The notes beneath the pieces are model-generated. The model ran no database searches, was not told the DNA's origin, and was given only the letters and a program-made list of their open reading frames with translations. This document shows, piece by piece, positions 1-10,316 of a stretch of DNA of 10,316 bases. The DNA lies in contig DQUR01000047.1 in the NCBI GenBank assembly GCA_015662175.1, forward strand, positions 1-10,316, in the 5' to 3' direction. Source of the DNA: Thermococcus paralvinellae. GTDB taxonomy: Archaea; Methanobacteriota_B; Thermococci; Thermococcales; Thermococcaceae. The stretch's first letter is position 1. Each line of letters begins with the position of its first letter. Both the position numbers and the translations under genes were made by a program.

Positions 1-2
1 TC

Positions 3-77
3 ACCGAGGAGCTTGAGAGAGAGCTTGAAGACCTGAAAAAATTTACGTCAAATAATCTAGCAAGCTCCTCACCTTAA
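3..77 (+). CDS. C-terminal tail of an unidentified protein (5' end outside window)
   Basis: An open plus-strand frame enters from the left edge and ends at TAA 75-77. It reads a charged Glu/Leu/Lys-rich helix (TEELERELEDLKK) followed by a short polar tail ending in SSP. The composition and the codon choice (GAG, CTT, AGA, AAA) resemble the other genes here, which is why I think it is real. It overlaps the 3' end of the minus-strand gene at 43-429 by about 35 bases, a tail-to-tail overlap. Too little is present to name the family, and chance readthrough cannot be excluded. Confidence 0.45.
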   Translation, partial: TEELERELEDLKKFTSNNLASSSP

Positions 78-429
78 TCTTCCTCTTCAACGCGTCACAA
101 ACTTCTCTCCCATCAAAATCAGGGGAATACTCAACACCAAGCTCGTTAAGGAAGAATTTCATTATCTGAAAGTCATTATCTGAAAGGCGTATTTTGACTT
201 GTTCCCTTCCATTTCTACAGCTATGAGGGCTTACCACGATTTCCAATATTATATTAAAATTCAATCTCACACCCAAATCCACATCAATAAAGCTTATCTT
301 TTCTTGTGTTTTGAATTTTTTCACAAGAGCATTTGGAAATCTTGATTTCAGCTTTTCTATAAGCTTTATCGCCCTCTCATACTGCTCTTCAGTGAGCTCA
401 GCCTTGAGCCTAACCCCCTCAAGGATCAT
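43..429 (-). CDS. hypothetical protein, divergent to reverse gyrase (128 aa)
   Basis: I do not recognise this family. The protein is 128 residues, soluble and rich in Lys, Arg and Glu. It has no signal peptide, membrane segment or metal-binding cluster; it has only one or two isolated Cys. The N-terminal third (TEEQYERAIKLIEKLKSRFP) looks like a long amphipathic helix, the middle is beta-rich, and the C-terminus is helical. A longer frame starts at GTG 439-441, but I chose ATG 427-429: a GGTGAG Shine-Dalgarno lies about five bases before it, and the likely TATA box (461-468 read on this strand) would place transcription start near or below the GTG. It is divergent from reverse gyrase with about 75 bases between the starts, so the two may share promoter control. 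Function unknown. Confidence 0.72.
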   Translation of the reverse strand: MILEGVRLKAELTEEQYERAIKLIEKLKSRFPNALVKKFKTQEKISFIDVDLGVRLNFNIILEIVVSPHSCRNGREQVKIRLSDNDFQIMKFFLNELGVEYSPDFDGREVCDALKRKIKVRSLLDYLT

Positions 430-460
430 GCTCTCACCCACGAGAGAAATCTAAAAAATC

Positions 461-468
461 CTTATAAA
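461..468. promoter_or_regulatory. TATA box of the reverse gyrase promoter, possibly bidirectional
   Basis: CTTATAAA is preceded by an A-rich stretch (AAAAAATC) that fits an archaeal BRE. It is about 25 bases before an expected start near 490, giving a leader of roughly 15-20 bases before ATG 507. Read on the minus strand the same box is TTTATAAG and lies about 35 bases before ATG 429 of the opposite gene, so it could serve both directions. A second minus-strand candidate is TATTTAAG at 479-486. Assigned by position and consensus only. Confidence 0.5.
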
Positions 469-506
469 CTCTGCATCACTTAAATAGCCCATTAGAGGGT
501 GAAAAA

Positions 507-3500
507 ATGAAGGCGATTTATAGAGAAATGTGCCCAAACTGTGAGGATAGAATTAGTGATGAACGCCTGTATAAGAAGCATCCGTGTAATGTCTGTCTCG
601 ATGAGGAGATTCAAGCTGGGATTTACTTTGATTTGATAACAGGCATTAGAGAAGCCCTCAAGCTGAGGGGAACGCTAAAACGCTGGGAGGAAATTTACAG
701 ACTTGAGAAAAAGCTGAGGGAAATTGAAGAGTTCTTTGAGAAGGCCACAGGTTTTAACCTCTGGAGCGCGCAAAAAACATGGGTAAAGAGGCTAATCAAA
801 AACAAGAGCTTTTCCATAATAGCCCCAACGGGTATGGGAAAGAGTGTTTTTGGCTCATTCATGGCACTGTATTATGCCAAAAAGAAAAAGAAAAGCTACA
901 TAATTTTGCCAACAACGCCACTTGTGATGCAGACAATCAAGAGGGTGAGAGCATTTGCAGAGAAGGCTGGCGTTGAAATCAACCCTGCCTATTACCACGG
1001 TGGTATGAAGAAGAAGGAAAAAGAGGAGATGACCGAAAAAATCGCGAATGGAGATTTTGACATCCTCATAACCTCAGCCCAATGGCTCGCGAGGAATTTT
1101 GATGAAATGCTTAAGGACAAAAGGTTTGACTTCATTTTTGTTGATGACGTTGACGCATTTTTGAAAGCCTCGAAGAATATTGACCGCTCCCTCATTCTGC
1201 TTGGCTTTACAGAGGAGGTAATCCAGAAGGCCTGGGAGATTATAAGACTGAGGAAGCAGATGGCAAAGTTCCTCAATGGTAACAGTCCGGACAAGCAGGA
1301 GCAACTCAACGAACTTAACAAGCAGATTAACAAGCTTGAGAGAGAAATAAGAAAATTCAAGCGCGAGAATAAAATCGGAGTATTGATTGTGGCCTCGGCA
1401 ACCGGAAGCGCAAGGGGGGATAGGATAAAGCTCTACCGTGAGCTTCTGGACTTTGAGGTGGGGAGTGGGAGGTCGGCGTTGAGGAATGTTGTTGATAGCT
1501 ATCTCTTCCCGGAGAAACCAGTCGAGCAACATGTTGAAGATCTCTTAGCAAAGCTTGGCAAGGGAGGATTGATTTTTGTCCCGATTGATCAGGGAATTGA
1601 CTATGCAGAGAAGCTTACACGGTACCTTCAAGATAAGGGCTTCAAGGTTGAGCTCGTCTCTGCAAAAAATAAGAAGGGCCTTGAAAAGTTTGAAAACGAG
1701 GAGATTGACTATTTGATCGGTGTTGCGACCTATTATGGGACCATAGTTAGGGGATTGGATTTGCCACACCTGATTAGATATGCAATCTTTACAGGCGTGC
1801 CGAAATTTAGGTTCAGCCTCGATTTGGAGCAACCCACAATCTACAGGGTTTTGGGGTTGATGAGTGAAGTCATGGAATTCCTTGATGATGAGGATAGAAG
1901 GGAAGGCGAAAGACTGTATGCCCGCTTAAGGCGTTTGATTAGGAACATTCCACAGTTTGAACTGATGAAAATTGAAGAGGCGTTAGCTGAAGGTCTACCC
2001 TTAGAAGGATTCCACAATCATGTTCTTGAAGTGTTTAAACAGTGTGTTGAGTTCTTGAGGAGAGTTCTAAAGAAAGAAGAAGTGCTCAAGCGCATAGAGG
2101 AAGATCCATTTGTCAGCCTTAAAGAGGAGGAAGGGAAATGGTACATTGAGATCCCAGACGTGAGAACATACATCCAGGCAAGCGGAAGGACTTCCCGTCT
2201 ATTCGCCGGTGGAATTACAAAGGGTCTCAGCGTGATAATAGTTGATAACGAGAAGGTCTTTAATGGCTTGAAGAGGCAGATGAGATGGCGCTTTGCAGAA
2301 TTTGAGATGAAGCCATTTGAAGAGCTCAACCTCGAGGAGCTTCTCAGGGAGATAGACGCTGATAGAGAAAAGGTCAAGCTAATTCTTGCTGGGAAGATAA
2401 GTGAAAAAACGAAGGACTTGGTTAAGTCTGCCCTTATGATAGTTGAAAGCCCGAACAAAGCCAGAACAATAGCCGGCTTCTTCGGGCAACCAAGCAGGAG
2501 AAGGATTGGCGATCTGGTGGCATATGAAGTCAGCATAGGCGATAGGATGCTGACGATTTTGGCAAGCGGGGGACATATGTTCGACCTCGTTACAACGGAA
2601 GGCTATCACGGTGTCCTCATGGAGGAGAGGGATGGAAAGCTTTACTTCATTCCGGTCTATGACACAATAAAACGCTGTAGGGACTGTGGTCATCAGTTCG
2701 TTGACTGGGAAGAGAGGGGAGTCTGTCCAAGGTGTAGCTCAAGGAATGTCAGAGATGCCCTCGAGAATGTAACTGCAATGCGTGAAATAGCTCAGGAGGT
2801 TGATGAAATTCTCATAGGGACTGACCCAGATGTCGAGGGAGAAAAGATTGCATGGGACATCAGGAATGTCCTGAGCCCCTACACACCGAACATAAAGAGA
2901 ATCGAGTTCCACGAGGTTACAAGGCCGGCCATATTGAAAGCATTGAATGAGGCAAGGGACGTTAATGAGTTCAGGGTTAATGCCCAGCTGGTGAGGAGAA
3001 TAGAGGACAGATGGATTGGGTTCGAGCTCAGCCAGAAACTGTGGGAGGTATTTGAGAACAGAAATTTATCAGCGGGTAGGGTTCAAACACCGGTTCTTGG
3101 ATGGGTGATACAGAGATACAGGGAGTTCGTTGAGAGCGAAACCGACTTCATTGCGCTAACCCTGGAGAATGGCTTAAATGTAACCTTAGAAGGTGTCAAA
3201 GAGGAGATTGAAGAGGTAATCGTTGAAGATGTTCAGATTGAGGAGAGGGAACTCAATCCATTCCCGCCGTATACCACGGATACAATGCTTCAGGATGCTT
3301 CAAGATTTTTGGGATTTTCCGCTCCCTATGCAATGCAGCTGGCACAGGATCTTTTCGAACTCGGTCTTATCACCTATCACAGAACCGATTCAACCCGTGT
3401 CAGCAACACGGGTATTGAAGTTGCAAGGGAATACATCAGGGAAGAAATTGGGGAGGAATACTTCGCCCCGAGGAAGTGGGGTGAGGGAGGAGCACACGAG

Positions 3501-4157
3501 TGTATAAGGCCTACAAGGCCAATTGATACTGGAAGGTTAATGCAGTTGTTGAGGGATGGTATCATTACCCTTGCAAGGGGACTCACGAGGGACCATTTCA
3601 GGCTTTATGATATGATATTCAAACGCTTTATGGCATCGCAGATGAAGGCTGCAAATATCCTCCATGAAAAGGCTGTAATTAATGCAAAAATAGCCAGAAC
3701 TGAAATTGAAGGGTATATTGAGATGATCTTTGATGGCTGGACTAAGTTAAGGGCACCGCCACTGAGGAAACTGCCAAAACTTGAGAAAGGGCAGAAACTT
3801 AAGGTCGTTGAGATTAAGAAATGGAGAGCTTCAAAGGTTCCCCTCTATACCCAGGGTGATCTAATCGCCTTAATGAAGGAGCGCAAGATTGGAAGGCCCT
3901 CAACTTATGCAAAGATTGTTAAGACACTCCTTGACAGGCATTACGTCATCGAGACAAGGGGAAGGAAGAAGCTGATCCCAACGGAACTTGGGACTAAAGT
4001 CTACCACTACCTTATAAGTAAATACAGGGAACTTGTAAGTGAGGAAAGGACGAGGCAACTTGAAGAGCTTATGGACCTGGTGGAAGAAAATAAGGTGGAT
4101 TATCAGGAAGTACTGAACAATATGTATGTAGAGATTAAACAATACATTTTAAAGTGA
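507..4157 (+). CDS. rgy: reverse gyrase
   Basis: Reverse gyrase introduces positive supercoils using ATP and is the hallmark topoisomerase of hyperthermophiles. This 1216-residue protein has every expected part. The N-terminal zinc finger has C9/C12/C27/C30. The helicase-like half has Walker A at 106-113 (APTGMGKS), a DDVD Walker B at 213-216, an SAT-type motif III at 297-299 and motif VI around 555-564 (QASGRTSR). The latch insertion lies about 360-530. The type IA topoisomerase half begins near 640 with the TOPRIM Glu647 and the acidic D773/D775/E777 set; a second zinc finger has C724/C727/C740/C743; the catalytic Tyr is Y957 in GLITYHRTD. The length matches intein-free family members; there is no intein beside the active site. 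Start: ATG 507 with GAGGGTG six bases upstream. It is monocistronic or read toward trmBL2. Confidence 0.98.
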
Positions 4158-4173
4158 TTTTGTGCTCTTTTTA
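4158..4173 (+). terminator. T-rich putative terminator after reverse gyrase
   Basis: The bases directly after the reverse gyrase stop are T-rich, with runs of four and five T. Archaeal RNA polymerase terminates on such oligo-T stretches without a hairpin. The runs are short, so termination may be partial and some transcripts could continue into the trmBL2 region. Confidence 0.3.
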
Positions 4174-4182
4174 TCTATACTG

Positions 4183-4215
4183 CTACCTTAACCAAAAAAT
4201 TTAAAATTAAGGTAG
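4183..4215. repeat. 9-bp inverted repeat upstream of trmBL2
   Basis: CTACCTTAA (4183-4191) is matched by its exact reverse complement TTAAGGTAG (4207-4215) around a 15-base A/T-rich spacer. It lies about 100 bases upstream of the trmBL2 TATA box and just after the reverse gyrase stop. It could be an operator, a hairpin in the 3' end of the reverse gyrase mRNA, or both. It does not match the Thermococcales glycolytic motif (TATCAC-N5-GTGATA). Confidence 0.6.
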
Positions 4216-4268
4216 AGTAAAATCTTTGTATGTTGATGCAATAGAGGTAAAATCAGATGGAGTTATGT

Positions 4269-4294
4269 TTAAATAAGATGCTTAAATAAGATGC
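4269..4294 (+). repeat. perfect tandem 13-bp repeat upstream of the trmBL2 promoter
   Basis: TTAAATAAGATGC occurs twice with no gap (4269-4281 and 4282-4294). The second copy ends about 22 bases before the TATA-like element, where an archaeal activator would sit. The spacing of 13 bp is slightly more than one helical turn. It may be a recent slippage duplication or a two-site regulator target. Confidence 0.75.
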
Positions 4295-4310
4295 AAAACT
4301 AATAGGGTTA

Positions 4311-4324
4311 AAAAAGTTATATAC
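4311..4324 (+). promoter_or_regulatory. BRE/TATA element of trmBL2
   Basis: AAAAAG followed by TTATATAC (4317-4324) is a good archaeal BRE/TATA pair. It predicts a start near 4345 and a leader of about 25 bases before ATG 4369. The close match to consensus fits a gene whose orthologues are very highly expressed. A weaker A/T box lies at about 4199-4209, inside the inverted repeat. Confidence 0.6.
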
Positions 4325-4368
4325 CCTAAGCTCGCATATGTTTTAACAAAAATATGGTGGTGGTAAAA

Positions 4369-5163
4369 ATGGCAAAAGATAGAATGGTAGAACTCTTACA
4401 AGAACATTTTGAATTGAACTTATATGAGGCAAGGGCATATGTTGCCTTAGTTGCGTTTGGTGTCCTTACTCCAGCAGAGCTAGCAAGTGTTTCCGAAGTT
4501 CCAGCACCAAGGACTTACGATGTGTTGAGGAGCCTTGAAAAGAAGGGTTTTGCAATCAGCCAACCGGGCAAGGTAAATAAATACAGGCCAGTACATCCCA
4601 AGAGTATCCTTGAAAAGTTCATTGCGGATTGGCAGGAAAGGGTTAAGGAAGAGCTTGAGGCTAAGAAGAAGGCCAAAGAGGAACTGCTTGAACTCATGAC
4701 CCCATTGATAGAGACAGAAATTCCGAAGTATGGTGTTGAAAGGGTTTGGGTTGTTAGGGGAATTAGGAACTCAACGCTCAAGACAAAAGAAATGCTTGAG
4801 GGAGTTCAAAAGGAGATGCTCCTTGCTGATGATGGTTATATAGCAATAAACCTCGAAGATGATATCATTAAAGCTATTGACAAAGGTGTTACAGCCAAAA
4901 TTGTTGTTACCAAACAGGTACTTCCAAGACTACAATCATCAAAGCTCATGGACTACTATAAGGACGGCAAACTTGAGCTCAAGGTTATTGATAGCCTTGA
5001 ACTGCCAATGTTAATCTGCGATGAGGAGGTATTCTTTGCATTGGAGGACATGGCTGCCAGATACTTCAACTATGAAACCCAGGTCTGGATTAAGGACTTC
5101 AGGGTTGTTAATCTCTTCAAAGGGAAGTTTAATGAATACTGGCAGAAGGCAGAAAAAGTTTAA
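4369..5163 (+). CDS. trmBL2: TrmB-family chromatin protein / transcriptional regulator TrmBL2
   Basis: The protein has 264 residues. A winged-helix domain covers about residues 16-75, with recognition helix near 47-60 (PRTYDVLRSLEKKG). A Lys/Glu-rich coiled coil at about 80-115 should dimerise it, and a C-terminal domain follows at about 125-264. The TrmB sugar-sensing domain looks shortened, as in TrmBL2. In T. kodakarensis (TK0471) and P. furiosus (PF0496) TrmBL2 is an abundant, largely sequence-independent DNA-coating protein that forms thick fibres and represses many genes. Start choice: ATG 4369 is preceded by a strong GGTGGTGG site; the in-frame ATG at 4354 lies upstream of this site, so I reject it. 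The length then equals that of known TrmBL2. It sits 211 bases after reverse gyrase, an association known in Thermococcales. The paralogue assignment rests on length and neighbourhood. Confidence 0.9.
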   Translation: MAKDRMVELLQEHFELNLYEARAYVALVAFGVLTPAELASVSEVPAPRTYDVLRSLEKKGFAISQPGKVNKYRPVHPKSILEKFIADWQERVKEELEAKKKAKEELLELMTPLIETEIPKYGVERVWVVRGIRNSTLKTKEMLEGVQKEMLLADDGYIAINLEDDIIKAIDKGVTAKIVVTKQVLPRLQSSKLMDYYKDGKLELKVIDSLELPMLICDEEVFFALEDMAARYFNYETQVWIKDFRVVNLFKGKFNEYWQKAEKV

Positions 5164-5166
5164 TGT

Positions 5167-5180
5167 CTTTTCTTTTTTTT
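5167..5180 (+). terminator. oligo-T terminator of trmBL2
   Basis: Directly after the trmBL2 stop are two T-rich runs, the second of eight T (5173-5180), in the 32-base gap between convergent genes. This is a typical archaeal intrinsic terminator for the plus strand. No equivalent T run for the minus-strand operon is seen in the gap. Confidence 0.6.
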
Positions 5181-5195
5181 ATCCGAGATTTCCCA

Positions 5196-5513
5196 TCATT
5201 CACCTTCCAGCCTTTTATACCTTTCCATGATGTCTATTATCCTTTCCATAACTTTTAAGTGCTTTTCAAGTTCTTCAATATCGTTGGGCAAACTGTTTGC
5301 TAACGTCTTTAGCTTTTCCATTAGTATTTCCTCAATGTCCTTAAGTTCCGCTTTTTTCTGCTTTCCCCGATGCTCACACACCGGGCAAAAAACTCTTCCA
5401 TTGAGCTCAAAAAGGGGAGAGCCACATTTGGGGCAGTGTTTATCGAGCATCTTTGCCCCTGAAAGTAGAAGAGGGGTTATTATTTTTCTGATCTCCTCAT
5501 CGCTCAACGCCAT
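5196..5513 (-). CDS. zinc-ribbon protein, Sjogren syndrome/scleroderma autoantigen 1 (p27) family
   Basis: This 105-residue protein has an N-terminal helix with the LLLSGAKMLDKHCPKCGSPL-type signature of the autoantigen p27 family. A zinc ribbon follows with C27/C30 and C43/C46 (CPKC, CPVC), then a highly charged helical C-terminus (about 53-105) that may form a coiled coil. Archaeal members are common, but no biochemical role is established that I know of; the ribbon suggests a nucleic-acid or protein interaction. ATG 5511-5513 lies one base after the stop of the upstream ureohydrolase-like gene and has a GGTGAG site in the end of that gene. An upstream GTG at 5525 would overlap by 11 bases and is less likely. 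The two genes are probably translationally coupled. Confidence 0.82.
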   Translation of the reverse strand: MALSDEEIRKIITPLLLSGAKMLDKHCPKCGSPLFELNGRVFCPVCEHRGKQKKAELKDIEEILMEKLKTLANSLPNDIEELEKHLKVMERIIDIMERYKRLEGE

Positions 5514-5514
5514 C

Positions 5515-6243
5515 TCACTCACCACTCAGCAGTTGAAACACATCAATTAATGCCCTCTTACCCATGCGTGAACGCTTTATCCTGTCCGAAATCTCTGCTA
5601 TGTCAAACGCCACAATTTTAAAGTTCTTTTTAATCCTTTCGAGGATATGGAGGAGCTCCTCCAGTGTAAGTTCACCATGCTGAAAGCGGGCGATTTTATA
5701 CTCAGGCAACAAAACATCCAAATCAACGGTAAGATAAATTTCCTCTCCAAGGTATTTCTTTACATCTTTGATTATCTCCTCTATTGAGTGGGTTTTTAGG
5801 CTTTTATATGCCTTCCATTTCCCCCCTGTTTTTTTACTCCTTGGTAGAGCGGGAAATATCTTAACCCTCCTTGTCCATAACTTAGTTCCTTCTGTGGTGG
5901 GTATCATCAAAACCGGTCCTATAACGGAGGCTTTCTCAATTATTCTTTTTTCGAGAGCGTATGCAAGCCAAGAGCCATGGTCCAGATAATCGTGCATTAA
6001 GTCAGTGTGAGCATCTATACTTATAAGTGCCCCTGGTTTAAGCTTCTGAACTATACCATAGGTCGTAAGGTGCTCCCCAATTATATATGCCCTGTCAACA
6101 GGCAACCTCTCAGGGAGTAGCTCAATTGTGTTTGACTCAACGATCATGTATTCATCGATGAGCTTATTCCTCCTCAGGAGATTGAGAGCATACATGACAC
6201 CCTCTCTGTTTGGTTTTTCTCCAAACGGAATAAACGTAACCAT
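5515..6243 (-). CDS. divergent ureohydrolase (arginase/agmatinase-fold) protein
   Basis: This 242-residue protein retains all six Mn-ligand positions of ureohydrolases by my reading: H58 (GEH in place of GGDH), D77/H79/D81 (DAHTD), and D174/D176 (TVDLD). A second His, H89, follows in DHGSW, and E217 in FDIAEISD fits the substrate-binding Glu. It departs from the family elsewhere: it is shorter than the usual 290-320 residues, the last motif is DLDVLLP rather than DxDxxDP, and the APGTG loop is absent. It is therefore probably a metal-dependent amidinohydrolase-like enzyme, but not a standard agmatinase, and the substrate is unknown. It starts at ATG 6241-6243 with GGGAG upstream, and leads a two-gene operon with the zinc-ribbon protein. 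Confidence 0.8.
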   Translation of the reverse strand: MVTFIPFGEKPNREGVMYALNLLRRNKLIDEYMIVESNTIELLPERLPVDRAYIIGEHLTTYGIVQKLKPGALISIDAHTDLMHDYLDHGSWLAYALEKRIIEKASVIGPVLMIPTTEGTKLWTRRVKIFPALPRSKKTGGKWKAYKSLKTHSIEEIIKDVKKYLGEEIYLTVDLDVLLPEYKIARFQHGELTLEELLHILERIKKNFKIVAFDIAEISDRIKRSRMGKRALIDVFQLLSGE

Positions 6244-6273
6244 TGCAACTCCCAGAATTTAATCCAGGGAACT

Positions 6274-6283
6274 CTTTTTAAAC
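6274..6283 (-). promoter_or_regulatory. TATA-like element of the ureohydrolase operon
   Basis: Read on the minus strand this is GTTTAAAAAG, about 35 bases upstream of ATG 6243. That is a suitable distance for a short-leader archaeal transcript. It is assigned by position and A/T content only. Confidence 0.4.
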
Positions 6284-6311
6284 TTAGTCCATTAACTCCC
6301 GGCCATTATTA

Positions 6312-6333
6312 CAAGTTTTTTGTCAAAAACTTG
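6312..6333. repeat. 9-bp inverted repeat upstream of HPS-PHI
   Basis: CAAGTTTTT (6312-6320) and AAAAACTTG (6325-6333) are exact reverse complements around a 4-base centre. The element lies in the 154-base divergent region, immediately before the A/T-rich TATA candidate of HPS-PHI. Its placement next to the BRE fits an operator or activator site; it lies upstream of the expected RNA start, so an RNA hairpin role is less likely. Confidence 0.6.
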
Positions 6334-6336
6334 AGA

Positions 6337-6348
6337 GTTAAAATTAAA
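6337..6348 (+). promoter_or_regulatory. candidate TATA region of the HPS-PHI operon
   Basis: GTTAAAATTAAA is the most A/T-rich element upstream of the gene and predicts a transcript start near 6366-6370, about 30 bases before ATG 6398. It is weaker than the trmBL2 promoter and could be replaced by a neighbouring A/T box. Confidence 0.35.
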
Positions 6349-6397
6349 AAGTGTGCGAATTGATGTTGGAGTGATTAAAAATTTGGAGGAGTTCAAG

Positions 6398-7618
6398 ATG
6401 ATTTTACAGGTTGCACTGGATTTAACCGATATTGAGCAGGCTATTTCTATAGCAGAAAAAGCTGCTCGTGGTGGCGCTCACTGGCTTGAGGTTGGAACCC
6501 CCCTCATCAAAAAGGAGGGAATGAGAGCGGTTGAACTTATGAAGAGGCGCTTTCCAGACAGGAAGATAGTCGCTGACTTAAAGACCATGGACACCGGAGC
6601 CCTTGAGGTTGAAATGGCAGCGAGGCATGGGGCAGATGTTGTCTCAATTCTTGGTGTTGCCGATGATAGGACGATAAGAGACGCCCTCATGGTGGCAAGA
6701 AAGTATGGGATCAAAGTTATGGTGGACCTAATAGGCGTTAAGGACAAGGTCAGGAGAGCAAAAGAGCTTGAGGAGATGGGGGTTCATTATATCCTTGTCC
6801 ACACAGGAATAGACGAGCAGGCTCAGGGAAAAAGTCCCCTTGAAGATTTAGAAAAGGTCGTCAAAGCAGTTAAAATTCCAGTTGCAGTTGCTGGAGGATT
6901 GAACTTGGAGACGATTCCCAGGGTTATTGAGCTGGGAGCAACTATAATCATCGTTGGAGGGGCCATAACCAAAGCAGAGGATCCGGAAGAGGTAACAAGG
7001 AGGATAATCGACCTCTTCTGGGGCGAATACATGCAGACGATAAAAAAGGCAATGCATGACATAACTGAACACATTAACCACGTTGCAGATGCCCTCAGAC
7101 TTGATGAGGTTAGGGGACTGATAGACGCAATGATCGGGGCCAACAAAATTTTCATATACGGAGCCGGGAGAAGCGGATTGGTTGGTAAGGCATTTGCAAT
7201 GAGACTGATGCATCTTGACTTTAACGTCTATGTTGTTGGTGAAACAATAACCCCGGCATTTGAAGAGGGCGATCTGCTTATAGCGATAAGTGGAAGCGGT
7301 GAGACGAGAACGATAGTGGATGCCGCCGAGATTGCAAAAAATCAGGGGGGAAAGGTTGTTGCAATAACATCATACAGAAACTCAGCACTTGGCAGGCTGG
7401 CCGATGTTGTGGTTGAAATTCCTGGAAGGGCTAAGACAGACGTCCCGACAGATTACATAGCGAGGCAGATGTTAACCAAGTATAAGTGGGTGGCTCCTAT
7501 GGGAACTTTATTCGAGGACTCAACGATGGTATTCCTGGATGGTGTAATCGCACTTTTAATGGCAACATTTCAGAAGACCGAAAAGGATATGAAGAGGAAG
7601 CATGCGACCTTAGAATAG
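6398..7618 (+). CDS. hps-phi: bifunctional 3-hexulose-6-phosphate synthase / 6-phospho-3-hexuloisomerase (HPS-PHI)
   Basis: The 406-residue fusion joins the two ribulose monophosphate enzymes. Residues 1 to about 210 form an OMP-decarboxylase-like barrel with the DxKxxD motif D60-L-K62-T-M-D65, HTGID at 135-139 and AGGL at 165-168. Residues about 215-406 form a SIS isomerase domain with GAGRSGLVGKAFAMRL from 255 and SGSGET at 298-303. HPS joins formaldehyde and ribulose 5-phosphate; PHI interconverts hexulose 6-phosphate and fructose 6-phosphate. In T. kodakarensis the fused enzyme (TK0475) runs in reverse to make ribulose 5-phosphate, since Thermococcales lack the classical pentose phosphate pathway. 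I chose ATG 6398 because GGAGGAG lies six bases upstream; the earlier in-frame GTG at 6353 has no such site. It is the first gene of a tight plus-strand run. Confidence 0.96.
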   Translation: MILQVALDLTDIEQAISIAEKAARGGAHWLEVGTPLIKKEGMRAVELMKRRFPDRKIVADLKTMDTGALEVEMAARHGADVVSILGVADDRTIRDALMVARKYGIKVMVDLIGVKDKVRRAKELEEMGVHYILVHTGIDEQAQGKSPLEDLEKVVKAVKIPVAVAGGLNLETIPRVIELGATIIIVGGAITKAEDPEEVTRRIIDLFWGEYMQTIKKAMHDITEHINHVADALRLDEVRGLIDAMIGANKIFIYGAGRSGLVGKAFAMRLMHLDFNVYVVGETITPAFEEGDLLIAISGSGETRTIVDAAEIAKNQGGKVVAITSYRNSALGRLADVVVEIPGRAKTDVPTDYIARQMLTKYKWVAPMGTLFEDSTMVFLDGVIALLMATFQKTEKDMKRKHATLE

Positions 7619-7626
7619 GTGTTGTC

Positions 7627-8415
7627 ATGGTTTCCTTTACCCATATTTTTGTGGGAATTGGCAACAGCGGAATTAGAGTGATAAAAAATATGAATATGGA
7701 TATACCCAACGCCATTGGGGTAACCCTTGACTCTTCTTACTATCTCCTTGGCAGAAGGAGGCCCTCCTTTGTGAAGCAGATTAGGGATTTTTTTGGTAAT
7801 CTTAATGATGACACAATAATCTGGGTTATATTTGAGGATAAGCCGATTAACATTAAAATTGTAAACCTAATCAATGATAGCCTGCCAAGAAAGGTGATTC
7901 GCTTAGCTTACGTTCTCTCACCCTACAGAGAGCTCGTCTATGAGGGAAAACCTGAGTGGGCCAGTAACTTTGAAACCGTCTTCTATGATTCTCTCTCGGA
8001 GTTCTTAAATGACTACACCTCAGTACCTTTGGAAGATGCCTTCAATAAGGCAAGTGAGCAGATTGGCATCATGTTTTCGAAGCTTTACCATTACCTCGAA
8101 AATCAAATGCTTGTTAACGTTGACTATGCTGATCTATTTAACATGGTAAAAGGTGGTAACGTTGGAATACTAAGGATTTTAAGGGAAGTGGACTTTGAGT
8201 GGAACTGGGGGATGTGGGATAGGGGATTGATAAACATAATGGTCGGTAAAAATGTTCCTCTAAAAAGTGCTCACGAGATTTTGAAGAGGTTTCAACACCT
8301 CCTAAAGGAGAAGGATATAATATGGGGCATCAGGACAAATGAAGAGCTCGAAAATGAGATAGAGATACTGGCACTTTTAATCAAGAGGTGGTCAAATGGA
8401 GGCAATCCTGTTTGA
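7627..8415 (+). CDS. degenerate FtsZ/tubulin-superfamily protein lacking the GTP-binding signature
   Basis: This 262-residue protein resembles archaeal FtsZ by motif order. IFVGIGNSGIRVI (7-19) corresponds to the T1 strand-loop. DDTIIWVIFEDKPIN (61-75) occupies the GGGTGTG (T4) position, but the glycines are gone. PLEDAFNKASEQI (134-146) matches the core helix H7, with S143 where FtsZ has the guanine-contacting Asp. LVNVDYADL (162-170) matches the T7 loop with N164/D166/D169 retained. RGLINIMVGKNVPL (199-212) and DIIWGIRTNEELENEI (230-245) match the C-terminal domain. It is about 100 residues shorter than FtsZ, with no C-terminal peptide. It probably cannot bind GTP but could present T7 to another FtsZ's nucleotide. 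ATG 7627 has AGGTG five bases upstream and lies 8 bases after the HPS-PHI stop; longer frames intrude into that gene. The homology is my motif-level reading. Confidence 0.75.
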   Translation: MVSFTHIFVGIGNSGIRVIKNMNMDIPNAIGVTLDSSYYLLGRRRPSFVKQIRDFFGNLNDDTIIWVIFEDKPINIKIVNLINDSLPRKVIRLAYVLSPYRELVYEGKPEWASNFETVFYDSLSEFLNDYTSVPLEDAFNKASEQIGIMFSKLYHYLENQMLVNVDYADLFNMVKGGNVGILRILREVDFEWNWGMWDRGLINIMVGKNVPLKSAHEILKRFQHLLKEKDIIWGIRTNEELENEIEILALLIKRWSNGGNPV

Positions 8416-9040
8416 CTTAGATGAAACGCTTCTAACGGAAAAGCCATTGGTGGCATTCTTCCTTCCCCAGATCTATGAAAAAATCGCAAAAAAACTTGGA
8501 ATTGATAGGGAAAGTGCCAGAATCAGATTTCTCCGGGAAGTGATGAGCCGAAAAAATACCTACGAGTGGCATGACTGGAACTTTTTCTTCAGACTTTTCA
8601 ACCTAGATCTGAGGTATGAGGAACTTCTAACTGCTTATCCCCATAAGATTCGTGTATTTCCAGACGTAATACCAACTTTAGAATGGCTAAAAGAAGAAGG
8701 ATACAGACTTGGCATTATCACAAGTGGGCCCAAATATCAAAGGCTCAAGCTCAGGATAGCGAAACTCGATAATTACTTTGACGTAATCGTTACAAGGGAT
8801 GACCTGAAAACAGTAAAGCCCGATCCCAAAATATTTCTCTATGCCTTAGAAAAGCTTAAAGTTGAACCGGATGAAGCAATGATGATCGGGGATAGTCTTG
8901 AGCAGGACGTTTACGGTGCAAAGAGTGTTGGTATGGTTACCGTCTGGATAAATAGAAGTAATGACAAGGGTTATAACTTTGCCGATTATGAGATCAGAAC
9001 GCTTCATGAATTAAGAAAAATCCTGGAGGGTTTAGAATGA
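8396..9040 (+). CDS. HAD-superfamily phosphatase
   Basis: The 214-residue protein has all four HAD motifs: D7-L-D9-E-T (nucleophile and acid/base), T109/S110 in GIITSG, K141 in VKPDP, and G165-D166-S with D171. An alpha-helical C1 cap lies at about 15-85, between motifs I and II, as in phosphoglycolate-phosphatase-like and other small-molecule phosphatases. The substrate cannot be read from sequence. ATG 8396 lies 20 bases inside the end of the FtsZ-like gene, with GAGGTGG a few bases upstream, so translational coupling is likely. Its stop overlaps the next gene's start as ATGA. Confidence 0.93.
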   Translation: MEAILFDLDETLLTEKPLVAFFLPQIYEKIAKKLGIDRESARIRFLREVMSRKNTYEWHDWNFFFRLFNLDLRYEELLTAYPHKIRVFPDVIPTLEWLKEEGYRLGIITSGPKYQRLKLRIAKLDNYFDVIVTRDDLKTVKPDPKIFLYALEKLKVEPDEAMMIGDSLEQDVYGAKSVGMVTVWINRSNDKGYNFADYEIRTLHELRKILEGLE

Positions 9041-9216
9041 GGGAGGTATTCAAAAAAGAGGGGATCTTTGTTGAGTATGAAGAGAAGGTGGTTGAACTTG
9101 AGAATGGTGATAAGCTGGTTCACACACAGGAAAAGCCGACAAAACTCTGGTGGGAGCTGAAGGAAGCACTCAAAGGGAAGAGGGTTAGAGTAGTGGTATA
9201 CGAAATCGAGGAATGA
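9037..9216 (+). CDS. 59-residue hypothetical protein
   Basis: This short frame starts at ATG 9037, which overlaps the HAD stop as ATGA. GGAGGG lies six bases upstream, and the stop is TGA 9214-9216, three bases before the next ATG. The product is highly charged and soluble. It begins with a beta-like Glu/Val stretch (FVEYEEKVVELENGDKLV), has KLWWELKEALKGK in the middle (two adjacent Trp at 38-39) and ends in a beta strand (RVRVVVYEIEE). I do not recognise the family. Coding status is supported by the junctions and the Shine-Dalgarno site on both sides. A small partner protein for a neighbour is one possibility. Confidence 0.78.
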   Translation: MREVFKKEGIFVEYEEKVVELENGDKLVHTQEKPTKLWWELKEALKGKRVRVVVYEIEE

Positions 9217-9219
9217 GGA

Positions 9220-10026
9220 ATGATAGCCCACATCATAAATACTGACGTCTACGGCAGGGGAATTTTGAAGGTCTATCTGGAGTATCGCCTTCAGAATTTC
9301 GATTTTTTGAAAAATGCCGCAAAACTGCTCTTGGATAATTCAGAGAAGGTTTTGATTGTCTCAAGCTTTCCAATTCCTCCAATGAACATCTGTGAAACTG
9401 ACGGGCCTCTGGGAGCTCTGGCACTATACAAAGCTGTTGAGAGGATTGGAGGAAAAGCTGAGATCTGGGCACATGGGCAGGTAAAGAAAGCTCTGGAACC
9501 TTTTAAGGTAACATTGGTAGAAAATCCTAGAATCGAGAGTTATTCTATTCTTGTAAGTGTGGAAACCGCCGGGAGAAGTAAAGACGGGAATTATTACTCA
9601 ATGAGCGGGCTCAAGGTGCTAACCCCTCCATTTGATGAGCTCTTTTTGAAAGCAAGGGAGATCGGTGTTCCCACCATCGGGATCGGTGACGGTGGCAACG
9701 AGATAGGCATGGGGAATATTAAGCATCTCATTGAAAAGTACATTCCTCTCGGAGAAAAGATTGCAACTATTGTTGAAACCGATGAACTCATAGTTTCAGC
9801 TGTCTCCAACTGGGGAGCTTACGGATTGGTTGCTCAGGTTTCACTTGAAATTGGAGAGAATCTTCTGAAGGATTGGAATGAACGAAAGAACCTAATGACT
9901 ATGGTCTCTGCCGGATTAATTGATGGCATAGTTAAGAAACCTGTTATGAGTGTTGATGGATTAAGTGTTGAAATTCATGAAAAAATCGTTGAGCTTTTAA
10001 AGGAGACGGTGAATCATCAGCTTTAG
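9220..10026 (+). CDS. D-glutamate cyclase-like (DUF4392) domain protein
   Basis: The 268-residue protein carries the D-glutamate cyclase C-terminal domain signature. ETDGPLGA (60-67), VETAGR (114-119), GIGDGGNEIGMG (154-165) and SNWGAYGL (196-203) are the conserved blocks. This domain is known from mammalian DGLUCY, which converts D-glutamate to 5-oxo-D-proline. Many prokaryotes have the domain alone, as here. Whether the archaeal protein acts on D-glutamate is unproved. ATG 9220 lies three bases after the previous stop, with GAGG close to it. Start spacing is short, which fits translational coupling. The next gene starts 20 bases after its TAG. Confidence 0.87.
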   Translation: MIAHIINTDVYGRGILKVYLEYRLQNFDFLKNAAKLLLDNSEKVLIVSSFPIPPMNICETDGPLGALALYKAVERIGGKAEIWAHGQVKKALEPFKVTLVENPRIESYSILVSVETAGRSKDGNYYSMSGLKVLTPPFDELFLKAREIGVPTIGIGDGGNEIGMGNIKHLIEKYIPLGEKIATIVETDELIVSAVSNWGAYGLVAQVSLEIGENLLKDWNERKNLMTMVSAGLIDGIVKKPVMSVDGLSVEIHEKIVELLKETVNHQL

Positions 10027-10046
10027 CCAGAATTCGGGTGATTGCA

Positions 10047-10316
10047 ATGAAAATTGAAGACTTCATAAAAGATGAGAAAAGCTTGGATCTAATCAGAAAG
10101 GCTGAAGAATTTGCCAGAAGCTTTTTTGAGGGGGAAGGCACCCACGGATTTTCCCCCTGCTTTCAAGGGGCCTTGCGATATCATGGAGGAGAGCAGCTAA
10201 GGCTAAAACCTCCAGATCTGCACCCTCTTTTTCTCCAATGTGCATGCAGAGTGCGAGGACCCTTTCAGTGTGTGAAAATCCGTGGGTGCCTTCCCCCTCA
10301 AAAAAGCTTCTGGCAA
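10047..10316 (+). CDS. HD-domain hydrolase, 5' part; frame corrupted after about residue 36
   Basis: ATG 10047 follows GGGTGA at a five-base gap and lies 20 bases after the DUF4392 stop. The first 36 residues (MKIEDFIKDEKSLDL... to EGTHGFS) are a plausible HD-family N-terminus. From 10154 the plus-strand frame stays open to the window edge but reads Cys/Pro-rich nonsense. The expected continuation lies on the opposite strand: read on the minus strand from 10316 toward 10111, the frame gives ARSFFEGEGTHGFS then HTERVLALCMHIGEK and LLHDIARPLESRG. That includes the first His (10270-10272) and the His-Asp pair (10180-10185) of the HD superfamily. HD proteins are metal-dependent phosphohydrolases; the substrate is unknown. 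The gene is therefore broken in this sequence, either by real inversion or by a fold-back artefact. Confidence 0.8.
   Translation, partial: MKIEDFIKDEKSLDLIRKAEEFARSFFEGEGTHGFSPCFQGALRYHGGEQLRLKPPDLHPLFLQCACRVRGPFQCVKIRGCLPPQKSFWQ
10111..10153 (+). repeat. left arm of perfect inverted repeat (at least 43 bp)
   Basis: These 43 bases are the exact reverse complement of 10274-10316. They are ordinary coding sequence of the HD gene, codons for about ARSFFEGEGTHGF. The match ends at 10154/10273. On the outer side it cannot be followed because the window ends. Confidence 0.97.
10154..10273 (-). other. inverted 120-bp segment encoding the HD-domain core
   Basis: Read on the minus strand this segment continues the HD protein (HTERV ... 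EGADLEVLALAALLHDIARPLESRG) that starts on the plus strand at 10047. It joins in frame to the sense reading of the right repeat arm. Its orientation is opposite to the rest of the gene. Confidence 0.85.
10274..10316 (-). repeat. right arm of perfect inverted repeat, cut by the window edge
   Basis: This is the exact reverse complement of 10111-10153 and ends on the last base of the window, so its true length is unknown. It is a second copy of HD-gene coding sequence on the other strand. Confidence 0.97.

Follow-up and report, generated by a model that had tools for sequence, protein, structure and literature searches.

The stretch of DNA analysed here (the window) comprises 10,316 nucleotides of contig DQUR01000047.1 (positions 1 to 10,316) from Thermococcus paralvinellae (assembly GCA_015662175.1), and its plus strand, on which all features below lie, codes for an FtsZ-family protein that apparently lacks a GTP pocket and that we label FZL. 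The FZL coding sequence (7627..8415, 262 residues) runs from an ATG at 7627 to a stop codon ending at 8415, starts eight bases past the stop codon of the upstream gene hxlAB and is preceded by AGGTG (7617..7621), which reads as a ribosome-binding-like site and overlaps the hxlAB stop codon (TAG, 7616-7618). A longer in-frame open reading frame, from a GTG at 7486, overlaps hxlAB, its start being unused by relatives, and in the alignment 56 of the 63 relatives having a residue there share the start Met of FZL. Residues 256-262 (window positions 8391-8415), which overlap the start of the downstream gene, are missing from most relatives (present in 13-14 of 72).

The upstream neighbour, hxlAB (6353..7618), encodes a bifunctional 3-hexulose-6-phosphate synthase/6-phospho-3-hexuloisomerase (NF041755, 552 bits for a cut-off of 500), an activity that makes or breaks hexulose phosphate and leads to pentoses in these archaea. 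Its frame is listed from a GTG at 6353, and its true start is probably downstream, at about 6398, because orthologue matches begin there (at residue 9-16). Downstream, a HAD-family hydrolase gene (8396..9040; TIGR02253, 183 bits for a cut-off of 169.75) overlaps the 3' end of FZL by 20 bases. The order hxlAB-FZL-HAD, on the same strand, was found at 23/23 loci (23 of 24 long loci, L033 being omitted, where the genes of the window were looked for), with hxlAB and FZL matches lying within 54 bases of each other at 22 loci and 867 bases apart in L079. Further upstream, many loci have TrmBL2, a zinc-ribbon protein and an arginase-family protein; in L071 and L074, TrmBL2 and the zinc-ribbon gene are separated by roughly 2.2 and 3.8 kb that the window lacks.

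Kinship of FZL with FtsZ

Thermococcaceae possess two ordinary FtsZ, for which the labels FtsZ1 and FtsZ2 are set here: the shorter (L059, for example) reaches 445 bits against M. jannaschii 'FtsZ homolog 1' and 363 bits against Odinarchaeota FtsZ1, and the longer (such as L092), at 301 and 291 bits against the same two, is called FtsZ2 by elimination. FZL matches the ftsZ model TIGR00065 with an E value of 6.4e-6 (25.7 bits, far under the curated equivalog cut-off of 295.2; Thermococcaceae examples of FtsZ1 and FtsZ2 score 453 and 369 bits) and the FtsZ_C model PF12327 with 0.0041 (17.8 bits, under the cut-off of 27). M. jannaschii FtsZ in the PDB is matched at 4.2e-4 by the single FZL sequence and at 4.8e-7 by the FZL family profile. 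PF00091 does not match FZL, and none of its 31 matches in ten genomes falls at FZL. In the predicted structure, a Rossmann domain, helix H7 and a C-terminal domain form the FtsZ fold, and the 262-residue model has no extra domain. Chance resemblance is ruled out by the TIGR00065 and PDB profile matches, and homology of FZL with FtsZ is thus beyond chance. The original prediction, made from the window sequence, had claimed an FtsZ-type fold with Rossmann domain, H7, T7 loop and C-terminal domain and had proposed a profile search as a check; the model and the matches to TIGR00065 and M. jannaschii FtsZ bear it out.

The nucleotide side and the T7 loop

Aligned with FtsZ1, FtsZ2 and the related CetZ, FZL is without the S3-T3 stretch, eight T4 residues, part of T5-H5 and helix H9. 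Loops T3 and T4 have been deleted, not substituted. At FEDKPIN (residues 69-75; 7831..7851), helix H4 follows strand S4 directly, with the T4 loop GxGGGTGTG deleted between them. The claim that FEDKPIN replaces GGGTGTG was therefore right in that the motif is gone (G.GTG occurs in 0/86 relatives) and wrong in that eight T4 residues have been removed, with no residue-for-residue exchange. In helix H7 (residues 135-159; 8029..8103), S143 occupies the position of the guanine-contacting Asp of FtsZ, as had been noted for the window protein; this position is Ser in 55, Ala in 19, Thr in eight and Gly in three of 85 relatives, and Asp in none. Two residues of S. aureus FtsZ, D46 and Q48 in T2-H2, correspond to small residues and Tyr in FZL in the simplest register, at a place where the aligner put a gap. 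The FZL consensus stops at W255 directly after strand S10, and the linker and C-terminal tail of FtsZ, which is partner-binding, are absent. The predicted loss of the nucleotide site is upheld by the T3/T4 deletions and by the missing G.GTG and H7 Asp, and FZL is, judging from the alignment, without a GTP site of its own, T3, T4 and the guanine-recognising side chains being lost. What the original prediction got wrong is the T1 loop G10-x-G12-x-x-G15 (7654..7671): it was said to have lost most glycines, which are kept in 82/83 (G10), 82/83 (G12) and 81/83 (G15) relatives.

The T7 loop N164-V-D166-Y-A-D169 (8116..8133) reads N-[IV]-D-x-A-D in 85/85 relatives that span it (the remaining one of the 86 being a fragment of 141 residues), so the catalytic NxDxxD is conserved, as had been proposed. 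Three outcomes had been named in advance as speaking against the proposal (no FtsZ/tubulin match, a wrong fold, an unconserved NxDxxD), and none of the three was seen. Similarity to FtsZ2 peaks in S9 (38%) and T7-H8 (37%), and least of it is left in S10 (4%), S4 (7%), S5 and the Trp-rich loop (12% each) and T5-H5 (13%); since S10 and the Trp-rich loop belong to the C-terminal domain, there is no plain pattern of a lower half kept and an upper half lost. This Trp-rich loop, W192-x-W194-G-x-W197-x-R-G200 (8200..8226), replaces helix H9, is special to the FZL family and has its W-x-W-G-x-W near-invariant (84-85 of 84-85 relatives). It leads into the FtsZ_C-like C-terminal domain with strands S8-S10 and helix H10 (residues 199-254; 8221..8388).

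Altogether, 47/255 columns are invariant in a 68-row alignment of FZL. Also conserved is the S5-T5-S6-T6 stretch (residues 99-122; 7921..7992), with near-invariant P99, E102, L103, P109, W111, F115, T117, F119, Y120, D121 and S122. By its pattern of conservation this former nucleotide side is rebuilt, not decayed, and its near-invariant residues make a second partner or ligand there possible. Near-invariant residues on both faces would also suit self-assembly of FZL into a GTP-independent polymer or dimer, with the T7 of one subunit packed in the acidic, rebuilt pocket of the next. However, this seems very unlikely, as the pocket side (E/D70, E102, D121) is acidic like T7, so that repulsion is to be expected by reasoning, and FZL has lost T3 and T4, the loops that contact T7 in FtsZ.

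Distribution, origin and rate of change

Scanned at a threshold of E 1e-9, 89/94 genomes of the order (all of one family, Thermococcaceae) have FZL, each at 5e-81 or better (72/74 among those at least 90% complete), and 0/21 other genomes of the phylum do; the secondary matches of the scan at E 1e-9 are FtsZ of 405-440 residues. True absence from the five remaining family genomes is rejected, because the hxlAB orthologue is absent there too (G036, G050, G057) or present only in pieces at a contig end (G062, G064), and it is the locus that is missing from these assemblies. The wider archaea were covered by profile search and contig scan, not genome by genome: the former returned 86 proteins, many of them nameless, of which every one with an organism name is from Thermococcus, Pyrococcus or Thermococci/Thermococcaceae, and the latter, run with the single FZL protein, four loci whose titles all name Thermococci or Thermococcales. 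FtsZ-type names are already attached to at least six of the 86 (P0031, P0043, P0045, P0060, P0069, P0079). FtsZ1, FtsZ2 and CetZ are all present beside FZL in each of the ten genomes fully listed (with the 31 PF00091 matches), which supports the co-occurrence with ordinary FtsZ that the original prediction had named as a check; the source assembly of the window, 75% complete, has one PF00091 match only.

As for the origin of FZL within the superfamily, its profile scores 82.6 with FtsZ2, 63.1 with FtsZ1 and 21.5 (E 0.046) with CetZ in hhalign, and CetZ was on this ground rejected as the nearest relative. FZL shares fold, H7-T7-H8, S9 and NxDxxD with FtsZ2 and FtsZ1 of Thermococcaceae but has none of their T3, T4, H9, C-terminal tail and guanine Asp, whereas CetZ of Thermococcales keeps GFGGGTGAG, with TLD[AG]SD as its T7, and FZL is without the nucleotide loops. 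In a tree of the C-terminal domain (13/68 FZL sequences), FZL groups with Thermococcaceae FtsZ2 with an ultrafast bootstrap value of 90, its branch measuring 3.0 substitutions per site. In the approximately unbiased (AU) test, which took seven of these sequences and in which IQ-TREE warned of too few replicates, p was 0.68-0.70 for FtsZ2, 0.11 and 0.30 for FtsZ1 and 0.25 for CetZ, so that none was rejected, CetZ included. Both the branch and the test leave an FtsZ2 ancestry insecure, and we lean, short of proof, towards FZL being a reduced FtsZ paralogue of Thermococcaceae that came from FtsZ2. Its absence from sister families fits duplication on the stem of Thermococcaceae, followed by fast change. 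The FtsZ2 of these genomes have a peculiarity of their own: in 8/10 (L092-L101, the exceptions being L100 and L101) the T4 loop reads GMGNGTGTG, not GMGGGTGTG.

Across ten genome pairs, identity is 47.5-63.6% for FZL, 76.5-93.9% for FtsZ1, 69.2-80.3% for FtsZ2 and 83.2-91.8% for CetZ. The speed of sequence change and the shortening of the fold could be signs of a functionless, decaying FtsZ copy, and one genome (G070) does have an additional, broken FZL copy in two frames (C2:360944-361698), next to an intact one at C3. Yet FZL codons are under purifying selection, the ratio of non-synonymous to synonymous change (dN/dS, NG86) being 0.076-0.091 in the three comparisons within the genus that yielded one, at a dS of about 1.0-1.3, which is near saturation. 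These values come from L003 and L004 in one run and L004 and L005 in the other; L006 and L007 had no defined dS, and L005 and L008 (not located in the first run) and 4/6 rows of the second run, which were mis-oriented, were left out. Set beside the 47 invariant columns, out of 272 for the 68 sequences aligned, and the presence in 89/94 genomes, this makes decay scarcely credible, and the pseudogene reading was rejected on dN/dS and ubiquity.

Possible docking on FtsZ and its alternatives

In FtsZ filaments, the GTP held by a lower subunit is acted on by T7 residues N208, D210 and D213 of the subunit above it, D46 and Q48 of S. aureus FtsZ contact the T7 of the neighbour, and assembly is suppressed by N208L, D210N and D213N, and also by D46A and R143Q on the other side (PMC8936486). 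FZL keeps the T7 set (N164, D166, D169) and lacks the receiving set, and FtsZ1 and FtsZ2 of the ten genomes keep the receiving loops. By analogy we tentatively favour, as somewhat short of probable, that FZL docks with its T7 face on that face of FtsZ which bears GTP, and regulates filaments instead of building them. It would (i) take the place of an upper subunit on the nucleotide face of FtsZ2 or FtsZ1, (ii) place its T7 acids onto the GTP of the partner subunit and (iii) end the filament, because its own upper face cannot accept a further T7. The original prediction had gone further, to a one-sided cap that blocks further addition. Since the growing end of an FtsZ filament is the one that exposes T7 (PMC8936486), a protein with T7 only would bind the GTP-exposing end, so that the bound end is probably the opposite one and the blocking part is doubtful. 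Interface defects of FtsZ are argued to be toxic on the T7 side but not on the GTP side (PMC8936486), and from its likeness to mutants of the latter kind FZL may bind the non-growing end and there, as a cap or a GTPase activator specific to that end, mildly tune turnover or length, with no growth block. Its dose may follow sugar-phosphate/pentose metabolism, because its production is tied to hxlAB.

The same surface logic applies if FZL sequesters free FtsZ via T7 on the nucleotide face, without stimulating hydrolysis, or makes a weak link in filaments, lowering the effective FtsZ concentration, and the deletions on its upper face would make it a dead-end partner. This is rather unlikely, for a pure blocker needs no invariance of both T7 Asp (85/85); SulA blocks FtsZ with an unrelated fold.

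Several observations weigh against docking on FtsZ. No known division gene is among the operon neighbours of FZL, which are all metabolic (window genes at 23 loci); FZL evolves faster than FtsZ1, FtsZ2 or CetZ; and the invariant columns of T7-H8 (5/15, p 0.12) are compatible with the family average by chance, whereas the most enriched stretch is S6-T6 by the former pocket (6/9, p 0.0016). By these figures T7, although wholly kept, is not the sole constrained site, the pocket side being more so, and the conserved working end of FZL might be the face opposite T7. Because the neighbours are metabolic, that face is constrained as much or more and T7 could be structural, a metabolic, structural or ligand-sensing role is conceivable. 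FZL would then be a regulator or scaffold of sugar-phosphate metabolism whose former GTP side binds a metabolite, HxlAB or the HAD protein, with T7 propping the H7-H8 corner or meeting another partner. In favour are the invariable gene order, the absence of intact hxlAB from all five FZL-free genomes, the enrichment of S6-T6 and the near-invariance of P99, E102, D121 and S122 and of G10, G12 and N75 (82-83 of 83-86). We nevertheless consider this role unlikely, if worth serious attention: operon partnership need not mean shared function, the retained similarity to FtsZ sits in T7-H8 and S9, and we know of no structural need for D166. In FtsZ structures, D166 is the swinging catalytic Asp (PMC8936486). 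A combination of both ideas is quite improbable, namely that FZL is a natural half-enzyme whose T7 fires GTP in trans at the non-growing end and whose rebuilt pocket senses a sugar phosphate, linking division to the supply of pentoses.

The FtsZ inhibitors MciZ and SulA, whose folds are unrelated to FtsZ, each act on one of its faces. MciZ caps filaments and binds the bottom (T7) face (PMC8936486). SulA binds the T7 face too, and FZL would take the opposite, nucleotide face. ARC3 of plant chloroplasts, a chimeric protein derived from FtsZ, inhibits FtsZ assembly (PMC5471200), and FZL, if the docking reading is true, would be an archaeal parallel to this plant regulator. Unlike FZL, ARC3 is multi-domain, from plants and of independent origin; its FtsZ part is without GTP residues. 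The GTP hydrolysis site of FtsZ takes one half from each of two subunits, which would make a conserved one-half protein a tool for asking which end controls turnover, in a group with genetics (Thermococcus kodakarensis, Pyrococcus furiosus) for which the literature examined describes no FtsZ regulators. No description of a GTP-pocket-less archaeal FtsZ or of a half-site property was found in the open-licence papers searched, nor any paper naming the locus tags TK0475/0476/0477.

A divergent tubulin superfamily protein of T. gammatolerans EJ3 and Thermococcus AM4 was called strain-specific or redundant in the account of Brown and Duggin (2023, PMC9856176), and is probably FZL. The FZL relative P0079 is annotated FtsZ/tubulin family protein [T. 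gammatolerans], and genome G019 has three PF00091 matches only. If the two are the same, the published remark is corrected, since FZL, far from strain-specific, is in nearly every family genome.

Two other diverged FtsZ-like families are described by Makarova and Koonin (2010, PMC2875224): FtsZl1, which has a coiled coil and neighbours of VWA type and in which T6-H7 is not recognisable, and the proteobacterial FtsZl2, with all nucleotide loops. FZL differs from these in having H7 and T7 without nucleotide loops, and from FtsZl1 also in its hxlAB and HAD neighbours at every locus counted and in a model free of any extra domain. A candidate for FtsZl1 itself is perhaps a weak fourth PF00091 match in one genome (G004:C1:1627565-1627783), which scores 31.3 bits and lies in a frame of 1135 residues.
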